Positions 2,939-40,342 of a DNA stretch of 40,699 bases are shown here, piece by piece. The notes beneath the pieces are model-generated. The model had not been told where the DNA came from and ran no database searches. It saw only the letters and a list, made by a program, of their open reading frames with translations. The stretch's first letter is position 1. Each line of letters starts with the position of its first letter. Source of the stretch: Candidatus Omnitrophota bacterium (GTDB lineage Bacteria > Omnitrophota > Gorgyraeia > Duberdicusellales > 4484-171); contig JAGLUN010000044.1 of the NCBI GenBank assembly GCA_023134705.1, positions 1-40,699 on the forward strand, written 5' to 3'. The translations under genes were made by a program, and so were the position numbers.

Positions 2939-3547
2939 CTTGACACCACCCTTATAGAAGCGTCAACTCGCTAACTAGTTAATTGTTTTAATTATTCTAT
3001 TTTTCGTCCTTCGTCCTTCGTCTTTTCGTCTCTCGTCCCCCGTCTCCCGTTTTTCCTGTCCCTCTGTCTTCTGTTCTCTGATTTTCCGCCAGAGGCGGAT
3101 CTGCCTATGGCAGACTGTCTCCTAATGAGTATCTAGCATCGAGCATCTAGGATCTAAAAAGCTATCCCTCATCCTTCTCATCTCACTTTTATCTCTATAT
3201 TCTTTAATAGTATTGCCTGTTGCGTATCGCGTATCGTGTATAAGGTTACTTAAAGTTACTTAAGGTTGCTTAAGGTTACTTAAAGTTGCGTAAAGTTACG
3301 TCAAGTAAACTCCACTGTATTTCTATATTCTTTACTAGTATCGCGTATTGCGTATCGAGTATCGCGTATCGAGCATCCAGCATCTATCACTCAATTCTCC
3401 CTTTCGTCCCTCGTCCGAGTAAACGAAGTGAACGGTCGTCTCTCGTCCTTCGTCTTTTCGTCCCTCGTCTCCCCATCTGCGTGTATCTGCGTTTCCGCCA
3501 AGGCGGATCCGCCTCTGGCTGAAGATTTGCGTTAATCTGCGTCTACA
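2939..3547. repeat. Intergenic patchwork of heptamer arrays and palindromes
   Basis: About 660 nt separate the aldolase gene from the ROK kinase gene and no believable gene lies in it. It contains degenerate 7-bp tandem arrays: CGTCCTT/CGTCTCC-type units at 3005-3050 and 3405-3472, ATCTAGC/ATCGAGC-type at 3131-3156, and TATCGCG/TATCGAG/CATCCAG-type at 3339-3387. Two copies of a TCCGCC..GGCGGATC palindrome lie at 3085-3115 and 3494-3521. A larger element with a 10-bp array lies at 3183-3318. A 78-codon plus-strand ORF through this block is made only of repeat units. Confidence 0.75.
3183..3318. repeat. Dispersed element B, copy 1, with seven 10-bp units
   Basis: Begins with CACTTTTATCTCTATATTC and carries seven 10-bp units of the AAGGTTACTT/AAAGTTACGT type at 3242-3311, then CCACTGTAT. 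A second copy occurs at 15371-15483 with only five units, so the two differ by exactly 20 bp inside the array. Downstream of copy 1 the start of the element is partly repeated (TTCTATATTCTTTACTAGTA at 3321-3340). Confidence 0.8.
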
Positions 3548-9477: not shown

Positions 9478-9591
9478 AAACCAACTACGAACTACAATCT
9501 CCACGAGTAGTTTGTTGTTAGTAGTTTGTAGTTTGTTTAAAAAAATGTGTTGTCTTCCCAAAACCAACTACCAACTACGAACTACAATCTT
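9478..9591. repeat. Dispersed element A, copy 2, between trpB and trpA
   Basis: Consists of AACCAACTACGAACTACAAT, a central block TCCACGAGTAGTTTGTTG followed by more AGTTTGT-type 7-bp units and an A-run, and a second AACCAACTACCAACTACGAA. The two arms are direct repeats of each other and partly complementary to the centre, so the whole can fold. It interrupts the trp operon directly 3' of the trpB stop codon. Confidence 0.78.
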
Positions 9592-9593
9592 CT

Positions 9594-10790
9594 TTATCCT
9601 TTATCCTTATCCTTTATCTTTCCTCTCTTCTCCCGGACAATATCCAAATCTTTATCGCCTCTTCCTGAAAGACAAAGTATAACTAAACTACCTTTATTCT
9701 TTTTTGCGATTTTTTTCAAATAATACAAAGCATGGGAAGGCTCAAGCGCAGGGATTATTCCTTCCAGTTTGCTTAGCATTTTAAAACCATGTAAGGCCTC
9801 TTTATCACTTACCGCGACATAGCAAGCTTTCTTTATTCTTTTGTAGAAGGAATGCTCCGGACCGACTCCCGGATAATCCAACCCGGCAGCAATCGAATGT
9901 GTCGCTTTAATTTGGCCGAATTCATCCTGTAAAAGGAATGACTTCGCGCCGTGCAAAATTCCTACTTTGCCTTTAATCAAAGAGGCACAATTTAAAGAAG
10001 AAAGCCCTAATCCCCCTGCTTCCACACCGATATTTTTCACTTTTTTATCATCAAAGAAAGGGTGGAATAACCCTATAGCGTTTGATCCACCGCCTACACA
10101 AGCAACAAGATAATCCGGAAGGCGGTTTTCTTTTTTTATAATCTGAGATCTGGCTTCTTTACCAATAACCGATTGGAAATCTCTCACTATAAGAGGATAC
10201 GGATGCGGACCTACTACCGAACCTAAAAGATAATACGTATCTTTTACGTTTGTAACCCAGTCTCTTATAGCTTCGTTACAGGCATCTTTTAAGGTCTTTG
10301 AACCGCTTCTTACGGGAAAAACATTAGCGCCTAAGATTTCCATCTTAAAAACATTCGTTTTCTGCCGCCTCATATCTTCTTCACCCATATATACATCACA
10401 TTTAAAACCAAAACGAGCCGCTACCGTAGCTGTGGCTACTCCATGCTGCCCAGCGCCGGTCTCAGCAATAATCCTTTTTTTCCCCATATGCCTTGCCAAA
10501 AATATTTGCCCCAAAGTATTGTTTATTTTATGCGCGCCCGTATGTAAAAGATCTTCTCTTTTTAGATAAACTTTGATACCTAGATACTCACTCAGCTTTC
10601 CGGCAAAATATAACGGGGTGGGTCGTCCGGCGTATTCTTTAAGGTAAAAATCTAATTCCCGAAGAGATCTTTTATCCTTTTTAAACTTAAAATAGCTCTC
10701 TTCCAGCTCCCTAAGGCAAAAAGATAAAGTTTCCGGGATAAATCGTCCTCCGAAATCGCCAAAATATCCTTTCTTATCAGGCATCCTCAT
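9594..10790 (-). CDS. trpB: Tryptophan synthase beta subunit (TrpB1 type)
   Basis: PLP enzyme that condenses indole with L-serine. 398 residues. The PLP lysine is Lys88 in [23 protein letters not shown] is the phosphate-binding loop and GRPTPLYFA the conserved N-terminal segment. It overlaps trpF by 14 nt (or 8 nt if Met3 is used), suggesting coupling. The C-terminal tail KIKDKDKG is read out of a degenerate TTTATCC 7-bp array (about 9593-9620), so the original C-terminus has probably been remodelled by the repeat. Length and motifs place it in the main TrpB1 group rather than TrpB2. Confidence 0.95.
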
Positions 10791-15370: not shown

Positions 15371-15483
15371 TCCCTCATCCCACTTTTATCTCTATATTCT
15401 TTACTAGTATTGAGTATCGTGTATAAGGTTACTTAAAGTTACTTAAGGTTGCGTAAAGTTACGTCAAGTAAACTCCACTGTAT
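15371..15483. repeat. Dispersed element B, copy 2, with five 10-bp units
   Basis: Same start (CACTTTTATCTCTATATTC) and same end (GTAAACTCCACTGTAT) as the copy at 3183-3318. The internal 10-bp array is at 15425-15474, with five units instead of seven. It occupies the gap between prmC and murA. Flanking CGTCCCT heptamers lie at 15508-15533 and, degenerately, before murA. Confidence 0.8.
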
Positions 15484-15499
15484 ATAATATATTTCTAAT

Positions 15500-16342
15500 C
15501 TATTCTTCGTCCCTCGTCGCCCCTCGTCCCTCGTTTTTTTTCAGGAGCACTCCTCTCCAATGACCGGAGTAATCTTTTATCCACTCTAAGAGATCATAAA
15601 AACCCAGCTCTTTTATAAAAGAATCAAGAAGTTTTTTATGATTGTATCCGATCTCTATTATAATAAATCCGTCTTTTTTTAAACACGAATACCCTTGTTT
15701 TAATATCTTTTTGATAAAAAACATTCCTTTATCTTTTGCGTTAAGCGCGAGCCGAGGCTCATAACCAAGCGAACCTCTAATGAAACGCTTCTCTACATAA
15801 GGAGGATTTGAAACAATTAAATCAAACGTTTTTTTCTTAAAGCTCATTAAAAGATCGGAATTAACTAATTTAACATCCAGGTTATGCCGTATCAAATTCT
15901 TTTTAGCGACTCTAAGTCCGTTAAAGCTTAGATCAGAAGCAAACACAGTAACTTTAGCCTTCAAAAACTTTTTTATACTTATGGCGATATTTCCACAGCC
16001 GCACCCTAAATCCAAAACGCGGCTAAGATGTTTGTCTCTGATTATTTCTATTGCCTTCTCAACAATCAACTCCGTCTCTTTCCTTGGTATCAAAACCTGC
16101 GGGTTAACTTCGAATTCCAGGCCAAAAAATTCTTCTTTATAAATAATATAGGCCGCGGGCATTCCTTCTGCATACAAACGTTTTATCTCCTCCAAACGTT
16201 TTAACCTCGTTTTATTTAAAAAAACGTCTTCCCTAAAATCGCCGCGGAGTTTGTCAAAACCCGGTAAATTTCTCAGCAGATAACTCAAATCACGATCTAG
16301 GAAAACTTTTCTGTTCGAATTAAGCCAAGCCCTTAGCTTCAT
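15500..16342 (-). CDS. prmC: Release-factor glutamine N5-methyltransferase
   Basis: SAM-dependent enzyme that methylates the glutamine of the GGQ motif in RF1 and RF2; both factors are encoded in this window. 280 residues. SAM loop DLGCGCGNIA at 111-120, catalytic NPPY at 179-182, and the PrmC linker VLIPRKETELIV at 84-95. It overlaps prfA by 23 nt, a common arrangement. The last 11 residues (NEGRGATRDEE) are encoded by a CGTCCCT-type 7-bp array and have no family counterpart, so the 3' end has been extended or replaced by repeat DNA. Confidence 0.94.
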   Translation of the reverse strand: MKLRAWLNSNRKVFLDRDLSYLLRNLPGFDKLRGDFREDVFLNKTRLKRLEEIKRLYAEGMPAAYIIYKEEFFGLEFEVNPQVLIPRKETELIVEKAIEIIRDKHLSRVLDLGCGCGNIAISIKKFLKAKVTVFASDLSFNGLRVAKKNLIRHNLDVKLVNSDLLMSFKKKTFDLIVSNPPYVEKRFIRGSLGYEPRLALNAKDKGMFFIKKILKQGYSCLKKDGFIIIEIGYNHKKLLDSFIKELGFYDLLEWIKDYSGHWRGVLLKKNEGRGATRDEE

Positions 16343-28980: not shown

Positions 28981-29100
28981 TAGCTACAATCTCCGCGAGT
29001 AGTTTGTTGTTAGTAGTTTGTAGTTTGTTAAAAAAATCTGTTATCAGCCCGCTTTATCAAAAATATCCTTCCCTTAAACCAACTACAAACTACAATCTAC
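28981..29100. repeat. Dispersed element A, copy 4 (fullest)
   Basis: Runs CTACAATCTCCGCGAGTAGT, then AGTTTGT-type heptamers, an A-run, CTGTTATCAGCCCGCTTTAT, and ends AACCAACTACAAACTACAAT. Its last bases (CTA at 29097-29099) are the TAG stop codon of the CDF transporter gene. The inner part reappears inverted at 4636-4715, and the core also at 9478-9591. Confidence 0.78.
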
Positions 29101-30248
29101 TTTTCTCCTTTCTCCTTTCTCCTTTCTCCTTTTACATACGGCTCAACATGGACATTCACCGAAGAAAAACCAAATTTATCTTTAAATAAGTCCGATACTT
29201 TATGGGAAATTTTATGTGCTTCATCCAGAGAGGTATTTTTATCAATCATCAAATGTAAGTTTAATATAGTTCTGTCTTCGCTGATGAATATTTTTAATCC
29301 GTGGAAGTCCTTTATTTTTTTTATTGCCCGGGTTAATTTTCCCAAAGTTTCGGCAATCTCTTTTTTTTGAGTAAAATAAGCTTTTTTGGATAAATCTACG
29401 TGAACGATACATTTTCCTAAGCCCTGATGATAGACTTTTTTTTCAATTGTATCAGCCACCGAATGCGCCTCTTCCAGAGACAAATCCCTTTCTAATTCTA
29501 TGTGAAATGTAATAATATTCGTTTTTCCGTACGAATGAATGTTAAGATCATGTAAATTTTTAATCTGGGGAAACCCGGCCGCGATGGCTTTAATCTCCTT
29601 GTAAAGCTTTGAAGAAGGCTTCTTCCCGATTAATCTATCCACAACGGATCTTGTTAAATTTACCGCCCAGAACATTATTACTATAGAAACGAATATTCCG
29701 ACTAAAGCATCAACGAATAAAAGCCCGTTTTTTACAAAAATCAGACCTGTCCCGACACATAAACTAGTAAGGAAATCAGTGTAATGATGACGGCTGTCAC
29801 TTACTAAAAGGTAAGAATTAATCTTCCGGCTTACCTTTGAGGTAACAAATCCTAAAATAAGCTTTATTACAGCAGTAAGAAAGATAATACCGATGAAAAG
29901 GTTTGTCACCTTAAGCCCGGAATAAGAATAAAATCTTAAAAAAGATAATCTAAAAAAATTGCATCCAGCAAGAAAAATGAGTAAAGCAATAATAAGGGTT
30001 CCGATATCTTCTATCCTTCCATGTCCAAAAGGATGTTCTTTGTCGGGACCTTTCTTGCTTATGATTACACTGAGGATTACTACCAGAGTTGTAATTACAT
30101 CCGACAAAGTATGGACACAATCACCTAATATAGAAATACTGTGGGAAATAATCCCCAAAGCCAATTTCACTCCGGCGAGAAGTAGATTAATCGCGATGCT
30201 AAATAAGCTTATTTTTAAAGATAATCTATAATAATTATCCCGCTTCAT
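29097..30248 (-). CDS. Cation diffusion facilitator (Zn/Mn/Fe-type) with doubled C-terminal domain
   Basis: Inner-membrane divalent metal/proton antiporter. 383 residues, about 80 longer than a usual CDF. Six membrane segments in the first 200 residues carry the two HxxxD metal motifs, His46-Asp50 (VHTLSD) and His154-Asp158 (RHHYTD), plus the HPFGHGRIE loop. The C-terminus holds two successive ZT-dimer-like domains (about 205-290 and 300-375), both with the DLSLEEAHSVADTIE/NTSLDEAHKISHKVS pattern. The last residues (GERRKEKGEK) are read from a TTTCTCC heptamer array (29102-29129), and the stop codon lies in element A. It starts 5 nt after lnt. Metal specificity is not evident. Confidence 0.9.
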   Translation of the reverse strand: MKRDNYYRLSLKISLFSIAINLLLAGVKLALGIISHSISILGDCVHTLSDVITTLVVILSVIISKKGPDKEHPFGHGRIEDIGTLIIALLIFLAGCNFFRLSFLRFYSYSGLKVTNLFIGIIFLTAVIKLILGFVTSKVSRKINSYLLVSDSRHHYTDFLTSLCVGTGLIFVKNGLLFVDALVGIFVSIVIMFWAVNLTRSVVDRLIGKKPSSKLYKEIKAIAAGFPQIKNLHDLNIHSYGKTNIITFHIELERDLSLEEAHSVADTIEKKVYHQGLGKCIVHVDLSKKAYFTQKKEIAETLGKLTRAIKKIKDFHGLKIFISEDRTILNLHLMIDKNTSLDEAHKISHKVSDLFKDKFGFSSVNVHVEPYVKGERRKEKGEK

Positions 30249-30253
30249 TATAA

Positions 30254-31744
30254 TTAATTGTCATTGTATCTCCCGAAAATCGGCATAAAAACAGCTATCA
30301 CAGCGAATAAAACAATCAATTCCGGATGCCGGGAATAAAAACTTACTTCTTTATCCAGATTGATATCCGCGGCGAATACTCCTTCAGTAAATATTTCCTT
30401 ACCCTTCCTGCTAAATTTTTTTATGTCTCCCGTAGACGAAACCCATCCGGTTATACCGGTATTTGCCGCTCTTACGATTGGGATCCTATTCTCTATGGCT
30501 CTAAAAACCAAAACGGCCAGATGTTGACTTGCTTCAGGCTCGCCGTGAAACCAGGCATCATTGGTAATATTCACAATGAAATCAGAACCCCGGGCAAAAT
30601 CCCTGGCCATAAACGCGAATAAATCTTCAAAACAGATAAGCACGCTAAACTTTTTTCCATTAAGGCTAAAAACTTCCTTATTGTTTCCCGGAGAGATATC
30701 GCCCATTGTATTTATTACTTTTATAAATTTTACGAAATTCCGCAAAGGGATATATTCTCCGAAAGGAACTAATTTCAATTTACGGTATTTAGCTAAGATT
30801 TCACCTTCTTGGTTAAGCATTATTGCCGCATTATAAAATTTGCCGTTGGCTTTTTCTACCGCACCGATAAGCGCTGTTTTGTTTATCCCATCAAAAAGAT
30901 TTTGCAACTCTGCCAAATTGCTTTTTTGCAAAATGAAAGGATAACTGGCCTCTGGATAAATAATCAAAGCGGATTCAGGCGCTAACTTCCCCAATCTTTT
31001 CAACTTTTCAAGAATTACCGGGATATACGATGATTCCCATTTTAAATCCTGGGAGATATTCGTCTGAACCAAAGATAATTTTATTTTGCCGGAAATTTCT
31101 CCGGTATTTACCCGATAGAATGAATAAAGAAAGCTTACTGATAACAAAGTTGCAAATAAAATCGTTTCTTTTGAAATTATCTGCCATGGCCCAGCCTTAG
31201 GCAGCAATCCGCCTTCCCTGTAATTTCGGCCGGCTATTTTTTTCTTTAAAATATCATAAATAGTAATATTCGTTAGAATGATCAGCCAAGAAATAAACTT
31301 GACACCCAGGATATCGGCACCCTGGATAAGAAATACATTTTTATACTGGGAGTACCCCAAAATTGCCCAGCCGAATCGCGGCCAGATCATTTCCCTTGAA
31401 AACTCCAAAAGAATCCACAAAGACGGTATGGTTAAAAATTTAAACGAACGTCGTAAGAAAAATTTTGCCAGGTAGGCAAACACAACCCAGTAAAGAGAAA
31501 GATAAAATACAAGAATGATAAGGCCTAATTTCGTGACATACCCTACCCAGAATATTACCGTAAAAAAATAGGCGAATCCTGCCCCAAAAGCATAAATTAA
31601 GAGCCTGGTTTTCTTTGATTTTTCGAGAACGAAGAAGAAAGGAGAAAGCGTAAACCAGATAAGAAACGAAAAACAGGGATGGTTAAAACTCAGACCGGAC
31701 AAAACTCCGCTTATTATACTGACAAAAAATAATTTAAGATTCAT
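30254..31744 (-). CDS. lnt: Apolipoprotein N-acyltransferase
   Basis: Adds the third acyl chain to the N-terminal cysteine of lipoproteins. 496 residues. About seven hydrophobic segments lie in the first 210 residues, then a nitrilase domain with the E-K-C triad: Glu265 (IYPEASYPF), Lys322 (YRKLKLVPFGEY) and Cys371 (SVLICFEDLF). A last membrane segment is at the C-terminus. Motifs are complete, so it should be active. It is followed closely by the CDF gene and preceded by 393 nt of repeat-rich DNA after secA. Confirms a diderm with triacylated lipoproteins. Confidence 0.93.
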   Translation of the reverse strand: MNLKLFFVSIISGVLSGLSFNHPCFSFLIWFTLSPFFFVLEKSKKTRLLIYAFGAGFAYFFTVIFWVGYVTKLGLIILVFYLSLYWVVFAYLAKFFLRRSFKFLTIPSLWILLEFSREMIWPRFGWAILGYSQYKNVFLIQGADILGVKFISWLIILTNITIYDILKKKIAGRNYREGGLLPKAGPWQIISKETILFATLLSVSFLYSFYRVNTGEISGKIKLSLVQTNISQDLKWESSYIPVILEKLKRLGKLAPESALIIYPEASYPFILQKSNLAELQNLFDGINKTALIGAVEKANGKFYNAAIMLNQEGEILAKYRKLKLVPFGEYIPLRNFVKFIKVINTMGDISPGNNKEVFSLNGKKFSVLICFEDLFAFMARDFARGSDFIVNITNDAWFHGEPEASQHLAVLVFRAIENRIPIVRAANTGITGWVSSTGDIKKFSRKGKEIFTEGVFAADINLDKEVSFYSRHPELIVLFAVIAVFMPIFGRYNDN

Positions 31745-31774
31745 TGAATATATTTTATCAAACCTTCGCTGTAG

Positions 31775-31933
31775 GGGCCAGGCCTGCCTGGCCCTTTAAT
31801 TTATGATTTTTAATATTATTTTCATCGTTATCCCATTTCGCGGGATTATTTATAATATATTCTCGTATTTTATATGGATAAATTATTTGGTTTTATATAT
31901 TTGGTAAAGGGCCGGGCAGGCCCGGCCCTTTAC
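31775..31933. repeat. Pair of GC-rich palindromes bounding an AT-rich core
   Basis: GGGCCAGG-CCTG-CCTGGCCC (31775-31794) and GTAAAGGGCCGGG-CAGG-CCCGGCCCTTTAC (31904-31933, a perfect 13-bp stem with a 4-nt loop) are related palindromes about 110 bp apart, with very AT-rich DNA between them. The arrangement looks like a small non-autonomous element or a paired REP unit. As strong hairpins between secA and lnt they could also end or slow transcription. Confidence 0.72.
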
Positions 31934-31992: not shown

Positions 31993-32113
31993 AGCTCAAA
32001 GCTCAAAGCTCAAAGCTCAAAGCTCAATAGCTACAATCCCTTCCCCCAAACCAACTTCTAACGAGTATCGCGTATCGAGGATCTAGGATCTAGCATCGAG
32101 CATCGAGCATCAA
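31993..32113. repeat. Two heptamer arrays downstream of secA
   Basis: AGCTCAA units (7 bp, about five copies) at 31993-32028. Then come seven contiguous heptamers at 32065-32113: GTATCGC, GTATCGA, GGATCTA twice, GCATCGA twice and GCATCAA. The second array is built from related but distinct heptamers in pairs. Between the two lies a scrap of element A (CTACAATC..AAACCAACTTC). No gene is visible in the 393-nt gap between lnt and secA. Confidence 0.82.
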
Positions 32114-32137: not shown

Positions 32138-34999
32138 CTATTTCCCGCAGCACTTTTTATATTTCTTACCGCTTCCACAGGGACAAGGATCATTCCTTCC
32201 TACTTTTTGCTGAGGTTTTTGAGACAAGGTTTGGGCCGCAGGAGTAGTTTCTCTTTCAGTACTCTTCAACGAAGAATATTGGGAATGCACAAAATTTTTA
32301 GGTATATTATCAAAAACAGTTACGATTTCTTTCCTGGGTGTCAGCTTGGTTTTAAAAAGGAACTCTACGATACCCTCTTTAATAGAAGCCACAGTCTCAT
32401 TAAAAAGGGAATATGCTTCTTTTTGATACTCTACCAAAGGATTAACCTGGGCGTGGCCTCGTAAATGTATCCCTTCCTTTAAAGAATCGATAATTAAAAG
32501 ATGATTTTTCCAATGAGAATCTATTACCCATAAAGCGATATTCTTTTCCATATAACGCAGGATTTCCGGCGTAAATTCGTTTTCCTTCATCTCATAGATT
32601 GCGAATATTTTATTCTTAACCAAATCTAAAATCTCTGAAATTTTCTTCCCTTCCAGGTCAATAACGTCCAGCGAAAGACTAAATTTAACCCTTATCCAGG
32701 AAGTAAAACTTTCCCAGTCACTGTCTTTATAGTAAAAATTGAGTTGTTTTTCTATAACGCTGTCAATCATTTCGATTATTTCTTCTTTTATATCATCTTC
32801 CTCCAGGACTAAACGTCTCTGGCGATAAATTACCTCACGCTGCTTGTTTAAAACATCATCATATTCCAAAAGATGTTTTCTTATTTCAAAATTATGAGCC
32901 TCTACTTTCCTCTGGGCAACCTCAATAGAACGATTAATTAAACCATGCTCAATCGGTTCATCTTCGGGAAATCCGAATTTTTCCATCAGGAAGTAAATTT
33001 TTTCTGAACCGAAAAGGCGCATTAAATCATCTTGCAATGATATATAGAAACGCGATGACCCCGGATCCCCCTGACGCCCGGCTCTGCCTCGTAACTGGTT
33101 ATCAATTCGTCTTGCCTCATGCCGCTGGGTTCCGATAACATGCAAACCGCCTAATTCCACTACTTTATTATGTTCCTGTTCGAATTCGCCTTTATTTTCC
33201 TTATAAATTTTATCATACCACTCTTTATAATCGGGATTATCAAAAGAGATATTGTTCCTATTCAATATGTCCTTCACAAAAAAATCAATATTTCCTCCCA
33301 GGACTATATCCGTACCGCGTCCGGCCATATTAGTGGCAATAGTAATCTGTCCCAAACGTCCTGCCTGAGCGATTATATGAGCCTCGCGTTCATGATATTT
33401 AGCGTTCAAAACGTTATGAGGGATTCCTTTCCTCTCAAGCATATAAGAAAGTTCTTCCGAATCTTCAATTGAAGCCGTTCCTACAAGTATAGGCTTTTTA
33501 ATTTCGTACAACTCCCCGATTTCCGATATTACGGCGTTAAATTTTACTTTTTTGTTTTTATAAATTCTGTCCGGATTGCTTAATCGCCTCAAGGGTTTGT
33601 TAGTAGGTATTACCATCGTGTCTAAATGGTAAATATGCTTGAATTCATTCGCTTCGGTGTAAGCGGTCCCGGTCATTCCAGCAAGTTTTTTATACATACG
33701 GAAATAATTCTGCAAAGTGATTGTGGCCAGAGTCTGGGACTCCTGCTGAATCCGCAGTTTTTCCTTTGCCTCAACCGCTTGATGCAAACCGTCTGACCAA
33801 CGCCTTCCCGGCATAAGACGGCCGGTGAAATCGTCCACGATAATAACTTTGGCATCTTTTACGATATAGTCCTTGTCCCGCTTAAAGAGGTAATGAGACC
33901 TTAAAGCCTGACTAAGATAATGTACCCAACTGTTGGAGAACCGATCGGGGGTATCTTCGGAAATACTTTTAATCTGTAAAAGCGATTCGGATTTTTCTTC
34001 ACCTCTTTTGGTAAGATAGGCATTGTGGGATTTCTCTTCCACTATAGCATCCCATACTTTTTCTAACTCCTCAGGCTCCATTCTTTGTTCTGTCCCATCA
34101 GTATGTTTTAAAATTACGATTCCTTCTTTTGTATCATGACGGGAAATAACTAATTTTGTTTTAAACTGCCGGGCCACATTTTCCGCGGAATAATATTTCT
34201 CTATAGAAACTTCTGCCGGCCCGGAAATAATAAGAGGGGTTCTTGCTTCATCGATAAGTATGGAATCAACTTCATCCACGATAGCGTAAAAATGCTGTCT
34301 CTGGACTACCTCCTCTAAATTGTTGGACATATTATCTCTTAAGTAATCAAAACCGAACTCATTGTTTGTCCCATAAGTTATATCACAATCATAAGCCGCT
34401 TTTCTTTCTGTCTTACCCATATCCTGCTGAATCACCCCGCAACTTAAACCTAAGAACGCATATACCGGTGACATCCATTCATAATCACGGTTTGCTAAAT
34501 AATCGTTTACGGTGACGATATGCACACCTTCTCCGGCAAGAGCGTTTAATGAAGCCGCAAGCGTAGCAATTAAAGTCTTTCCTTCGCCGGTAGTCATCTC
34601 GGCAATTTTATTCTTGTGCAGAATTATGCCTCCTAAAATTTGGACATCAAAATGGCGCATATTAAGTGTCCGGCAGGCAGTTTCTCTTACCATAGCATAA
34701 TAAAAAGGAAGGATTTCGTCTAAAACCGCCTCAAGCGATATTTTGTACTGCGGTTCGGTTAGATTATCCGTCTTTGCAGCTATCATCATTTTAAATTCTT
34801 CGGTTTTCACTTTAAAGAAATTATCCGGCTTTTGCTTTAACTCCTGTTCAAAAGAATTTACCACATTTACTATTTCAGCCAGGGGAACAATCTCTTTCGC
34901 TGAAGGAAGAGGAATCTCTTCGGAGAATTTAATCATAACTAAAGGCTTTAACTTCTTAATTTTGCCCTGGTATTTGTTAAGAAAAATTTTTTTTAACAT
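32138..34999 (-). CDS. secA: Preprotein translocase ATPase SecA
   Basis: Motor of the Sec export pathway. 953 residues. The first nucleotide-binding domain has the Walker A region AEMTTGEGKTL and the DEAD-type motif IVDEVDSILIDEARTPL. The preprotein cross-linking domain and helicase-like NBD2 (IGTQRHEARRIDNQLRGRAGRQGDPG) follow. The C-terminus ends in the SEC-C zinc motif DPCPCGSGKKYKKCCG, which binds SecB or ribosomes. The N-terminus is about 20 residues longer than usual between the first helix and the VNSFEQEL segment. It starts 9 nt after the prfB stop, a pairing seen in several phyla. Confidence 0.96.
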   Translation of the reverse strand: MLKKIFLNKYQGKIKKLKPLVMIKFSEEIPLPSAKEIVPLAEIVNVVNSFEQELKQKPDNFFKVKTEEFKMMIAAKTDNLTEPQYKISLEAVLDEILPFYYAMVRETACRTLNMRHFDVQILGGIILHKNKIAEMTTGEGKTLIATLAASLNALAGEGVHIVTVNDYLANRDYEWMSPVYAFLGLSCGVIQQDMGKTERKAAYDCDITYGTNNEFGFDYLRDNMSNNLEEVVQRQHFYAIVDEVDSILIDEARTPLIISGPAEVSIEKYYSAENVARQFKTKLVISRHDTKEGIVILKHTDGTEQRMEPEELEKVWDAIVEEKSHNAYLTKRGEEKSESLLQIKSISEDTPDRFSNSWVHYLSQALRSHYLFKRDKDYIVKDAKVIIVDDFTGRLMPGRRWSDGLHQAVEAKEKLRIQQESQTLATITLQNYFRMYKKLAGMTGTAYTEANEFKHIYHLDTMVIPTNKPLRRLSNPDRIYKNKKVKFNAVISEIGELYEIKKPILVGTASIEDSEELSYMLERKGIPHNVLNAKYHEREAHIIAQAGRLGQITIATNMAGRGTDIVLGGNIDFFVKDILNRNNISFDNPDYKEWYDKIYKENKGEFEQEHNKVVELGGLHVIGTQRHEARRIDNQLRGRAGRQGDPGSSRFYISLQDDLMRLFGSEKIYFLMEKFGFPEDEPIEHGLINRSIEVAQRKVEAHNFEIRKHLLEYDDVLNKQREVIYRQRRLVLEEDDIKEEIIEMIDSVIEKQLNFYYKDSDWESFTSWIRVKFSLSLDVIDLEGKKISEILDLVKNKIFAIYEMKENEFTPEILRYMEKNIALWVIDSHWKNHLLIIDSLKEGIHLRGHAQVNPLVEYQKEAYSLFNETVASIKEGIVEFLFKTKLTPRKEIVTVFDNIPKNFVHSQYSSLKSTERETTPAAQTLSQKPQQKVGRNDPCPCGSGKKYKKCCGK

Positions 35000-38805: not shown

Positions 38806-38830
38806 GGGTCAGGCACTGAAACGTGAAATA
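38806..38830 (+). repeat. REP-like inverted repeat, left copy
   Basis: 25 bp beginning GGGTCAGGCACTGAAACG. It contains the TGA stop (38809-38811) and the codons for the final Ser-Arg-Phe-Ser-Ala of the transposase. Confidence 0.82.
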
Positions 38831-39756
38831 ACCCTACCCATCTCTTTTCTGAACTTACTATCTTCTTCCATCAATACCTCAACGCTCTTAGCTGCCTTAC
38901 TAATCGCTGTGGGACATATCTCAAACATCTTCCCGATCTCTCTATTAGTTATATTAATAAAACGCTTAAGAAGATATATAGCTATCTTCTTTTCTTTTAG
39001 GCGACGATTTTTCGCGTTCAATAGTTGGCTCCTACTCTTCCCAGTCATTTTTTCTACTCTATCTAATACATCTTCCGCACTAATATTTATTTCTAATTCT
39101 TTCTTGTAAGCAAATTCTCCGCTATCCACCTGCTCTTTCAATTCCTCTAACTTATCTTTAATAAATCCTTGCCTTCCTAATATGAATCCTGCATATACTT
39201 TATTAAACAGAGTATCTTCCCTACCTATTCCTTCTAACACAAATTGCCGATATCGTTGTGGCCTCATATTAAGATACAGACTTATTTGCTCTTTATCTAT
39301 ATAGCCATCACCTTTCTTATCTATATACCCTCTATAACTAGACCATTTATACTTTTCAGGACTTTTAACCATTTTCGCGCGTACAGGATTTAGATGTATA
39401 TACCTTGTCAATTCCAAAAAGTAAGAATCCTTATCTACCAAAATAGATTTATACCGGCCTTGAAATAGATGGCCGCACTTCCTGCGTTTTATATTGTAAT
39501 ATGTTGTATATGAGCTATTAATATGATGCATTATAGAGGAAAGATTGGGTTTAAGCGTCTCAATTTGAAGATGGTAATGGTTGGGCATTAAAGTGTAAGC
39601 ATAAAGATAAAATCTAAATTTATCTTTTGCTTTCTGAACATATTCTAGAAACTTCTTGTAATCATATTCACTTATAAATATCTTTTTCCTATTGTCTCCT
39701 CGACTGGTAATGTGATATAAACAGTTTTCTCCTTGTAATCTATAGGGGCGTGCCAT
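38809..39756 (-). CDS. REP-associated tyrosine transposase (Y1/HUH) with C-terminal DnaA-like HTH
   Basis: 315 residues if started at the ATG at 39754-39756 (MARPYRLQGENCLYHITSRG), the conserved beginning of this family; the frame extends 9 codons further upstream. The N-terminal Y1 domain (1-150) carries the HUH motif in LMPNHYHLQIE and the catalytic-helix region SYTTYYNIKRRKCGHLFQGR. Residues from about 205 form a DnaA-domain-4-like helix-turn-helix (LDRVEKMTGKSRSQL, then NREIGKMFEICPTAISKA), found in a subset of RAYT proteins. Likely recognises the REP-like inverted repeats on either side. Intact and possibly active. Confidence 0.88.
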   Translation of the reverse strand: MARPYRLQGENCLYHITSRGDNRKKIFISEYDYKKFLEYVQKAKDKFRFYLYAYTLMPNHYHLQIETLKPNLSSIMHHINSSYTTYYNIKRRKCGHLFQGRYKSILVDKDSYFLELTRYIHLNPVRAKMVKSPEKYKWSSYRGYIDKKGDGYIDKEQISLYLNMRPQRYRQFVLEGIGREDTLFNKVYAGFILGRQGFIKDKLEELKEQVDSGEFAYKKELEINISAEDVLDRVEKMTGKSRSQLLNAKNRRLKEKKIAIYLLKRFINITNREIGKMFEICPTAISKAAKSVEVLMEEDSKFRKEMGRVISRFSA

Positions 39757-39792
39757 AGGTACATTATATCTTTTAAGTTGCACCTGTCAATC

Positions 39793-39819: not shown

Positions 39820-40077
39820 TTATTCTCTTATTCTCAGTGTTGATGTATTGCATTATTCTGGAAAGATTAGGCTGGCTTGTCTCCAAAAGAAGATGATAAT
39901 GATTTGACATTAAAACGTAAGCATAAAGATAAAACTTATATTTCTCTTTTGCTAATTTTATATATTCAAGGAATTTTCAAAATCGTACTTGCTTATAAAT
40001 ACCTTCTTTCGGTCATCTCCGCTGCTCGTTATATGATAAATATAATCTTCTAATTGCAATCGATACGGTCTTGCCAT
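39820..40077 (-). pseudogene. Second REP transposase gene, frameshifted and truncated
   Basis: From the ATG at 40075-40077 the minus strand reads MARPYRLQLEDYIYHITSSG, then DDRKKVFISKYDFE, very close to the intact neighbour. A one-base loss in an A-run near 39980 shifts the frame. The continuation YLYAYVLMSNHYHLLL-like sequence with the HUH motif follows in the next frame, then SQPNLSRIMQYIN. The gene then breaks off at the REP repeat of the neighbouring unit. So only about 85 codons of some 315 remain. Confidence 0.78.
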
Positions 40078-40287
40078 ACCGGCATTTTAATCTCTCTCCT
40101 AACTAATTGTCAAATCTTTTCGCATTTCGAGGTCTGACCCCATTATCTAGTCATCTCCGCTGCTCGTTATATGATAAATATAATCTTCTAATTGCAATCG
40201 ATACGGTCTTGCCATACCGGCATTTTAATCTCTCTCCTAACTAATTGTCAAATCTTTTCGCATTTCGAGGTCTGACCCCATTATCTA
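40012..40287. repeat. 138-bp direct tandem duplication
   Basis: 40012-40149 and 40150-40287 are identical as far as I can compare. Each unit contains the first 22 codons of the decayed transposase (start ATG at 40077 and again at 40215), its upstream region, and AGGTCTGACCCCATTATCTA, which resembles the CCTGACCCC end of the neighbouring REP. Short ATTATCTA units continue to about 40322. Confidence 0.88.
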
Positions 40288-40342
40288 TCATTATCTATGC
40301 ATTATCTATGACTCCATTATCTAAAAATTTTATAAAAATTCT

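Follow-up and report, generated by a model that had tools for sequence, protein, structure and literature searches.

Arrays of seven-base units with quite different sequences stand at several sites in one contig of Candidatus Omnitrophota bacterium, one of them next to the secA gene. The question raised by this locus is why such different sequences should share one period. The original prediction answered it with one generating mechanism, rather than spread of one element, acting in intergenic DNA. The whole stretch of DNA analysed, hereafter the window, is 40,699 nucleotides long and corresponds to contig C39 of a draft genome of 1.41 Mb in 94 contigs.

A heptamer array next to secA

The target array is located at 32065–32113 on the minus strand, starting 27 bp 3′ of the secA stop codon, and its seven heptamers were confirmed letter for letter. 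On the minus strand these are GATGCTC, GATGCTC, GATGCTA, GATCCTA, GATCCTC, GATACGC and GATACTC, and Tandem Repeats Finder (TRF) reported the array at 32062–32111 with period 7, 7.1 copies, 86% matches and a score of 51. It is flanked by secA (32138–34999, minus strand), the product of which is closest, among named relatives, to proteins of Candidatus Omnitrophota (64–66% identity), and by the gene for apolipoprotein N-acyltransferase (30254–31744, minus strand). Two G+C-rich palindromes, GGGGCCAGGCCTGCCTGGCCC (31774–31794) and AAGGGCCGGGCAGGCCCGGCCCTT (31907–31931), separated by about 110 bp, immediately precede the start of the LNT ORF (31744, minus strand). The window gave no match to Rfam at the gathering score, and a known structured RNA family was rejected on this ground.

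In 26 relatives, the region within 400 bp of the secA stop was compared. A period-7 array was absent in 25 of them, and the remaining one carried an unrelated heptamer array beginning at the secA stop itself. The array next to secA therefore requires no gene-specific function.

Excess of period 7 in the genome

Tandem similarity was scanned for every period from 1 to 30 in sampled stretches amounting to 584 kb of the 1.41 Mb. In the first sample of 354 kb, which included contigs with matches already known, 47 arrays were detected at period 7, 18 at period 14 and 8 at period 21, while the neighbouring periods 6 and 8 gave none and 3, respectively. Third-order Markov shuffles (mean of five) predicted 0.2 period-7 and 0.4 period-14 arrays for the same 354 kb. 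The second sample, 230 kb from 20 arbitrary contigs taken without such selection, gave 13 arrays at period 7 and 4 at period 14; for periods 6 and 8 the numbers were 2 and 5. The only further clear peak in the 354-kb scan, at 10/20, came mainly from the dispersed TAAAGTTACT element. In the contigs sampled first, seven-base arrays occur at about 20 per 100 kb. The density was 0.65 per kb outside ORFs of at least 120 amino acids against 0.039 per kb inside them, a difference of approximately 17-fold; the predicted absence from coding DNA thus holds for most arrays, but some do lie within ORFs. Both the excess of 7-nt tandem repeats and the concentration outside coding DNA agree with the heptanucleotide class of simple sequence repeats (SSRs).

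Among relatives of the same family, 20 stretches contained 14 arrays at period 7, and no other period exceeded 5. Period-7 arrays numbered 16 at loci of 72 genomes from outside Omnitrophota, and 4 in 251 kb of random members of the phylum. The period histogram that had been proposed as a check accordingly peaked sharply at 7 itself and at the multiples of 7. This peak is general, weaker in relatives and other phyla, and unusually strong in the present genome.

Arrays within the window

The other arrays listed in the original prediction were all present, with corrections to three of them. On the plus strand lies a perfect array of five AGCTCAA units (31993–32028), which has no second occurrence in the sampled parts of the genome and is probably young. 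Three further arrays, all on the minus strand, belong to the same GATVCTN/GATACGC family as the target. The second copy (3336–3384), predicted as TATCGCG/TATCGAG at 3339–3387, carries the recurrent end AATACGC GATACTA and the flank TCTATATTCTTTAC; the third (3127–3154) has four units, and a short copy of three units (3222–3242) is joined to the 10-bp-period TAAAGTTACT element. CGTCYYY heptads, predicted as CGTCCTT/CGTCTCC at 3005–3050 and 3405–3472, form an array at 3003–3050 and an interrupted one at 3405–3472, both on the plus strand. Element A (9483–9587) and a second element A (28999–29095) consist of inverted AACTACN heptad arrays of hairpin design.

The three corrected arrays, all on the plus strand, overlap the last codons of an ORF and so are not strictly intergenic as predicted. 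CGTCCCT units are indeed present at 15508–15533, at the 3′ end of a methyltransferase ORF, but with irregular spacing, which TRF reads as period 10. The TTTATCC array at 9593–9620 contains one unit of 6 bp and encodes the C-terminal tail IKDKDKG of an ORF for a PLP-dependent enzyme adjoining trpA. The perfect TTTCTCC array (4.4 copies, 29102–29132; predicted at 29102–29129) encodes the C-terminal tail of a cation-efflux ORF. A dispersed element of 10-bp period, TAAGGTTACTTAAAGTTAC, was also observed in the window at 3241–3306 and 15424–15462; it is often joined to GATACGC heptads, and a 14-bp version, GTAACCTTCTTAAT, exists elsewhere in the genome.

A dispersed family of degenerate heptads

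After clustering, 43 of the 91 sampled arrays, including the target, fell into one family. Its consensus, GAT[A/G/C]C[T/G]N, describes 51 arrays with 306 units, while the reversed sequence gives 6 arrays. Over the whole genome, 35 copies of the unit pair GTATCGM-GTATCGM and 93 matches to GATVCTN were counted, the reversed control being 0 in both cases. Many copies have a common order of units and the common end AATACGC-GATACTA, and some also share flanks such as TCTATATTCTTTAC. The unit of element A, AACTACN, is found 48 times in the genome, often as inverted pairs. From these counts and the size of the family, dispersal is a major cause of the pattern, and the claim that no single element had spread was not borne out. 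The sequences are unrelated, as claimed, among the perfect arrays, which are nearly all different heptamers, but not among the 43 arrays of this family.

Within the family the phase is strictly kept: of the intervals between one GATVCT and the next, 111 measure 7 bp, three measure 8 or 9 and none measures 6. T occupies position 4 in 6 of the 306 units, where 32% is expected. Adjacent units agree at 5.36 of 7 positions, compared with 5.10 after shuffling (reached in 0 of 500 shuffles), and this slight likeness is a trace of local duplication. Identical neighbouring units account for 8.2%, against 6.2% between arrays. Since identical neighbours are rare and adjacent units are barely more alike than shuffled ones, recent slippage is minor in the GATVCTN family. 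The near-absence of indels and of T at position 4 is unexpected under neutral drift, and points to some constraint; no part of the pattern is explained less well than this phase-keeping. The idea that free positions are universally spaced 3-1-2-1 was considered and rejected, as this spacing was found in 27 of 44 arrays here and 9 of 15 in the set of SecA-hit loci, but in only 5 of 15 from genomes G224 and G188.

Inverted pairs and occurrence in other genomes

GATVCTN arrays were found in 17 of 285 Omnitrophota genomes, the 93 matches mentioned above being from the present one, and AACTACN was also found in G002, G016, G019 and G188, paired in G016 and G188. Both units recur patchily in other genera and families of Omnitrophota, often as inverted pairs. 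In G224, a member of another family, GATVCTN builds scattered hairpins, each of which has two arms of about four heptads and a loop of 11–12 bp; single examples of this design were detected in G188, G181 and G010, and over G224 and the others together the loops measure 11–13 bp.

Inverted partners with a score of at least 12 were found near 11 period-7 arrays of the present genome, against 0 in the complement-only control, although here arrays matched the surroundings of other arrays nearly as frequently (9), which is what a dispersed family would give. The same comparison gave 3 against 0 for members of the same family and 8 against 0 for SecA-hit loci, mostly of other phyla. For the target array, no inverted partner was detected among the best-scoring pairs. 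Hairpin pairing as the constraint on the units was rejected, as the free positions of the arms lack covariation (30 of 94, compared with 31% in shuffled arms).

Nor is the GATVCTN grammar special to Omnitrophota: viral contigs contained 61 such stretches, many of them perfect, against 19 for the reversed pattern. In viral contigs L323–L383, GATNCTN arrays, some perfect and others degenerate, reach 24 units. A stretch of 3,024 bp with a heptad array, the only nearly identical locus encountered, is fully identical between loci L208 (G060:C128) and L209 (G000:C3), which were assigned to genomes of different families; the contig was probably misassigned in one bin.

Perfect arrays

The count of perfect arrays was restricted to those in which 14 or more bases match past the first copy; such near-perfect arrays are presumably young. 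The present genome contains 12 of them, made of 12 different heptamers, and none at periods 5, 6 or 8. Five more heptamers were obtained from relatives and five from SecA-hit loci, mostly of other phyla; over all sets, perfect arrays numbered 0 at period 5, 1 at period 6 and 2 at period 8. The diversity of perfect heptamers, together with the near-emptiness of these neighbouring periods, fits a period-specific generator. AGCTCAA ×5 and the other perfect arrays look freshly expanded, and with units that are nearly all different, the prediction of one generating mechanism for period 7 was supported.

Insertion into genes

Several arrays sit in frame within ORFs. In a gene for a sugar aminotransferase, the segment encoded by the array falls within some 13 additional residues, which the orthologues of three relatives lack when compared at the protein level. 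This insert without counterpart in orthologues, and the absence of arrays beside secA in 25 of 26 relatives, indicate that the arrays come and go. Two other loci with in-frame units were observed: L040 (61–2100), a single ORF with membrane and TPR-like parts, in which arrays of several heptad families are all in frame, and L217 (G226), with five ATCCAGT units within a fabD-like gene.

Y1/REP-type transposases

The genome contains six genes and one fragment of Y1/REP-type transposases. The gene within the window (38809–39783, minus strand) resembles the REP-associated tyrosine transposases and has a DnaA domain IV-like C-terminus (NF047646, 76 bits against a cut-off of 80). It carries the inverted repeats CACGTTTCAGTGCCTGACCC on its flanks, with a fragment of a second copy at 39824–39979. 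Adjoining this fragment, a 138-bp tandem duplication with 99% identity (40012–40291) carries the end word GAGGTCTGACCCC. Heptad arrays flanked none of the six genes or the fragment, and the ends of the window gene and of four other loci are the transposases' own inverted repeats. RAYT/REP mobilisation of the arrays was thus not supported, and no transposase or copying enzyme linked to the arrays was found.

Discussion

The target array is a copy of a dispersed intergenic family of 7-bp units, and on balance we consider it probable that such arrays were born by slippage and then spread by copying. At birth, heptamer arrays of many sequences would arise by repeat expansion favouring a 7-nt step, probably through slippage of strands as DNA is synthesised; the excess of period 7 that perfect arrays show is the ground for this view. 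Some arrays, with their flanks or as inverted pairs, would then be copied to many sites, including in frame into genes, and the copies would diverge through substitution with the 7-bp phase kept. Dispersal and insertion are evident from the copy number, the common ends and the insert-free orthologues; copying is the route that we infer.

The draft state of the genome, in 94 contigs, might suggest an assembly artefact, but the arrays are far shorter than a typical read, lie within contigs and between intact genes, and have comparable counterparts in other assemblies and phyla. As chance was likewise refuted by the Markov control (47 period-7 arrays against 0.2), this explanation has next to no probability. 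Less remote, but still improbable, is that REP- or MITE-like hairpins were moved by a transposase, RAYT or other, with period 7 inherited from a founder hairpin. The inverted-pair elements of G224 and others, with arms of about four units, the AACTACN pairs here and in G016 and G188, and the Y1/REP-type genes, one of them in the window, would agree with such an origin. However, none of these genes is flanked by heptads and five loci have inverted repeats of their own, most arrays here, including the target, are without an inverted partner, and the period 7 of many unrelated single-copy arrays would be left unexplained.

The most serious alternative is that the arrays were selected as phase-locked binding arrays, with a protein or RNA transcript recognised per 7 bp and two positions per unit free. 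A fixed GAT.C with free positions in 51 arrays, the strict 7-bp spacing, the same grammar recurring in other families and the excess of inverted pairs over the complement-only control all speak for it, as does the orientation: in 23 of 31 tandem contexts, the arrays point the same way as the genes on either side (P = 0.011). Sites for a global regulator were also proposed by the authors who described similar elements in Geobacter (PMC2700814). Against this, conserved gene association is absent at the secA site in 26 relatives, some arrays are inside genes, the free positions of hairpin arms do not covary, there is no known binding protein, and the conservation of the core follows in part from the method by which the arrays were collected. 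We regard binding arrays as rather unlikely, but as the phase-keeping is poorly explained otherwise, they keep real weight. A broader reading, in which the arrays would be a cross-phylum class of intergenic elements defined by pitch and not by sequence, with one conserved machinery making or reading degenerate heptads, often inverted pairs, in exact phase, is improbable.

The STRR heptamers of heterocystous cyanobacteria are intergenic and present in many copies, as are the G-rich heptamers of Xanthomonas and Nostoc and the arrays described here; the sequences are unrelated, and the present arrays are not G-rich. The Xanthomonas and Nostoc units are GGGAATC/GGGGAYT (Rehm 2015, PMC4692102). Closer in design are the elements of Geobacter metallireducens, in which GGGACCG ×4 occurs at 49 sites and class 3, with five MTYCTGA units, has sites mostly paired on opposite strands (PMC2700814). 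These are likewise dispersed degenerate heptads with opposite-strand pairs, located between and within genes, and pairs of the class 3 type are seen in AACTACN and in the G224 elements, but the unit sequences differ and the target array is unpaired. TAACTGA direct repeats of Beggiatoaceae, Cyanobacteria and Bacteroidetes (PMC4679880) also form intergenic heptamer arrays (of 2–6 copies) that are patchy across distant lineages. They are, however, a single heptamer placed mostly just upstream of start codons, whereas here there are many heptamers without such placement: the unit is GATVCTN or another, and the target lies 3′ of the secA stop.

According to later accounts (MacGregor 2015, PMC4679880; Rehm 2015, PMC4692102), heptanucleotides were described by Mrazek et al. 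2007 as the most abundant class of long SSRs in most bacterial genomes, with polymerase interaction and slippage as the proposed cause (PMC4679880). As far as these accounts go, the preference for 7 bp and the idea of slippage are already known and were published in 2007. The SSRs so described resemble the present arrays in that the exact 7-nt unit is the commonest and the distribution is phylogenetically scattered; here, however, about half of the arrays form one dispersed degenerate family, not independent simple repeats. A literature search on Omnitrophota and repeats found no description of such arrays in this phylum.

The bacterial preference for tandem repeats of 7 bp has been a standing question since 2007. 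The present genome is suited to separating slippage from selection, as it holds many heptamers and combines dispersed arrays with locally born ones, and it can be compared with hundreds of related genomes. Through in-frame insertion, the heptad repeats also supply proteins with new peptide segments and C-terminal tails.
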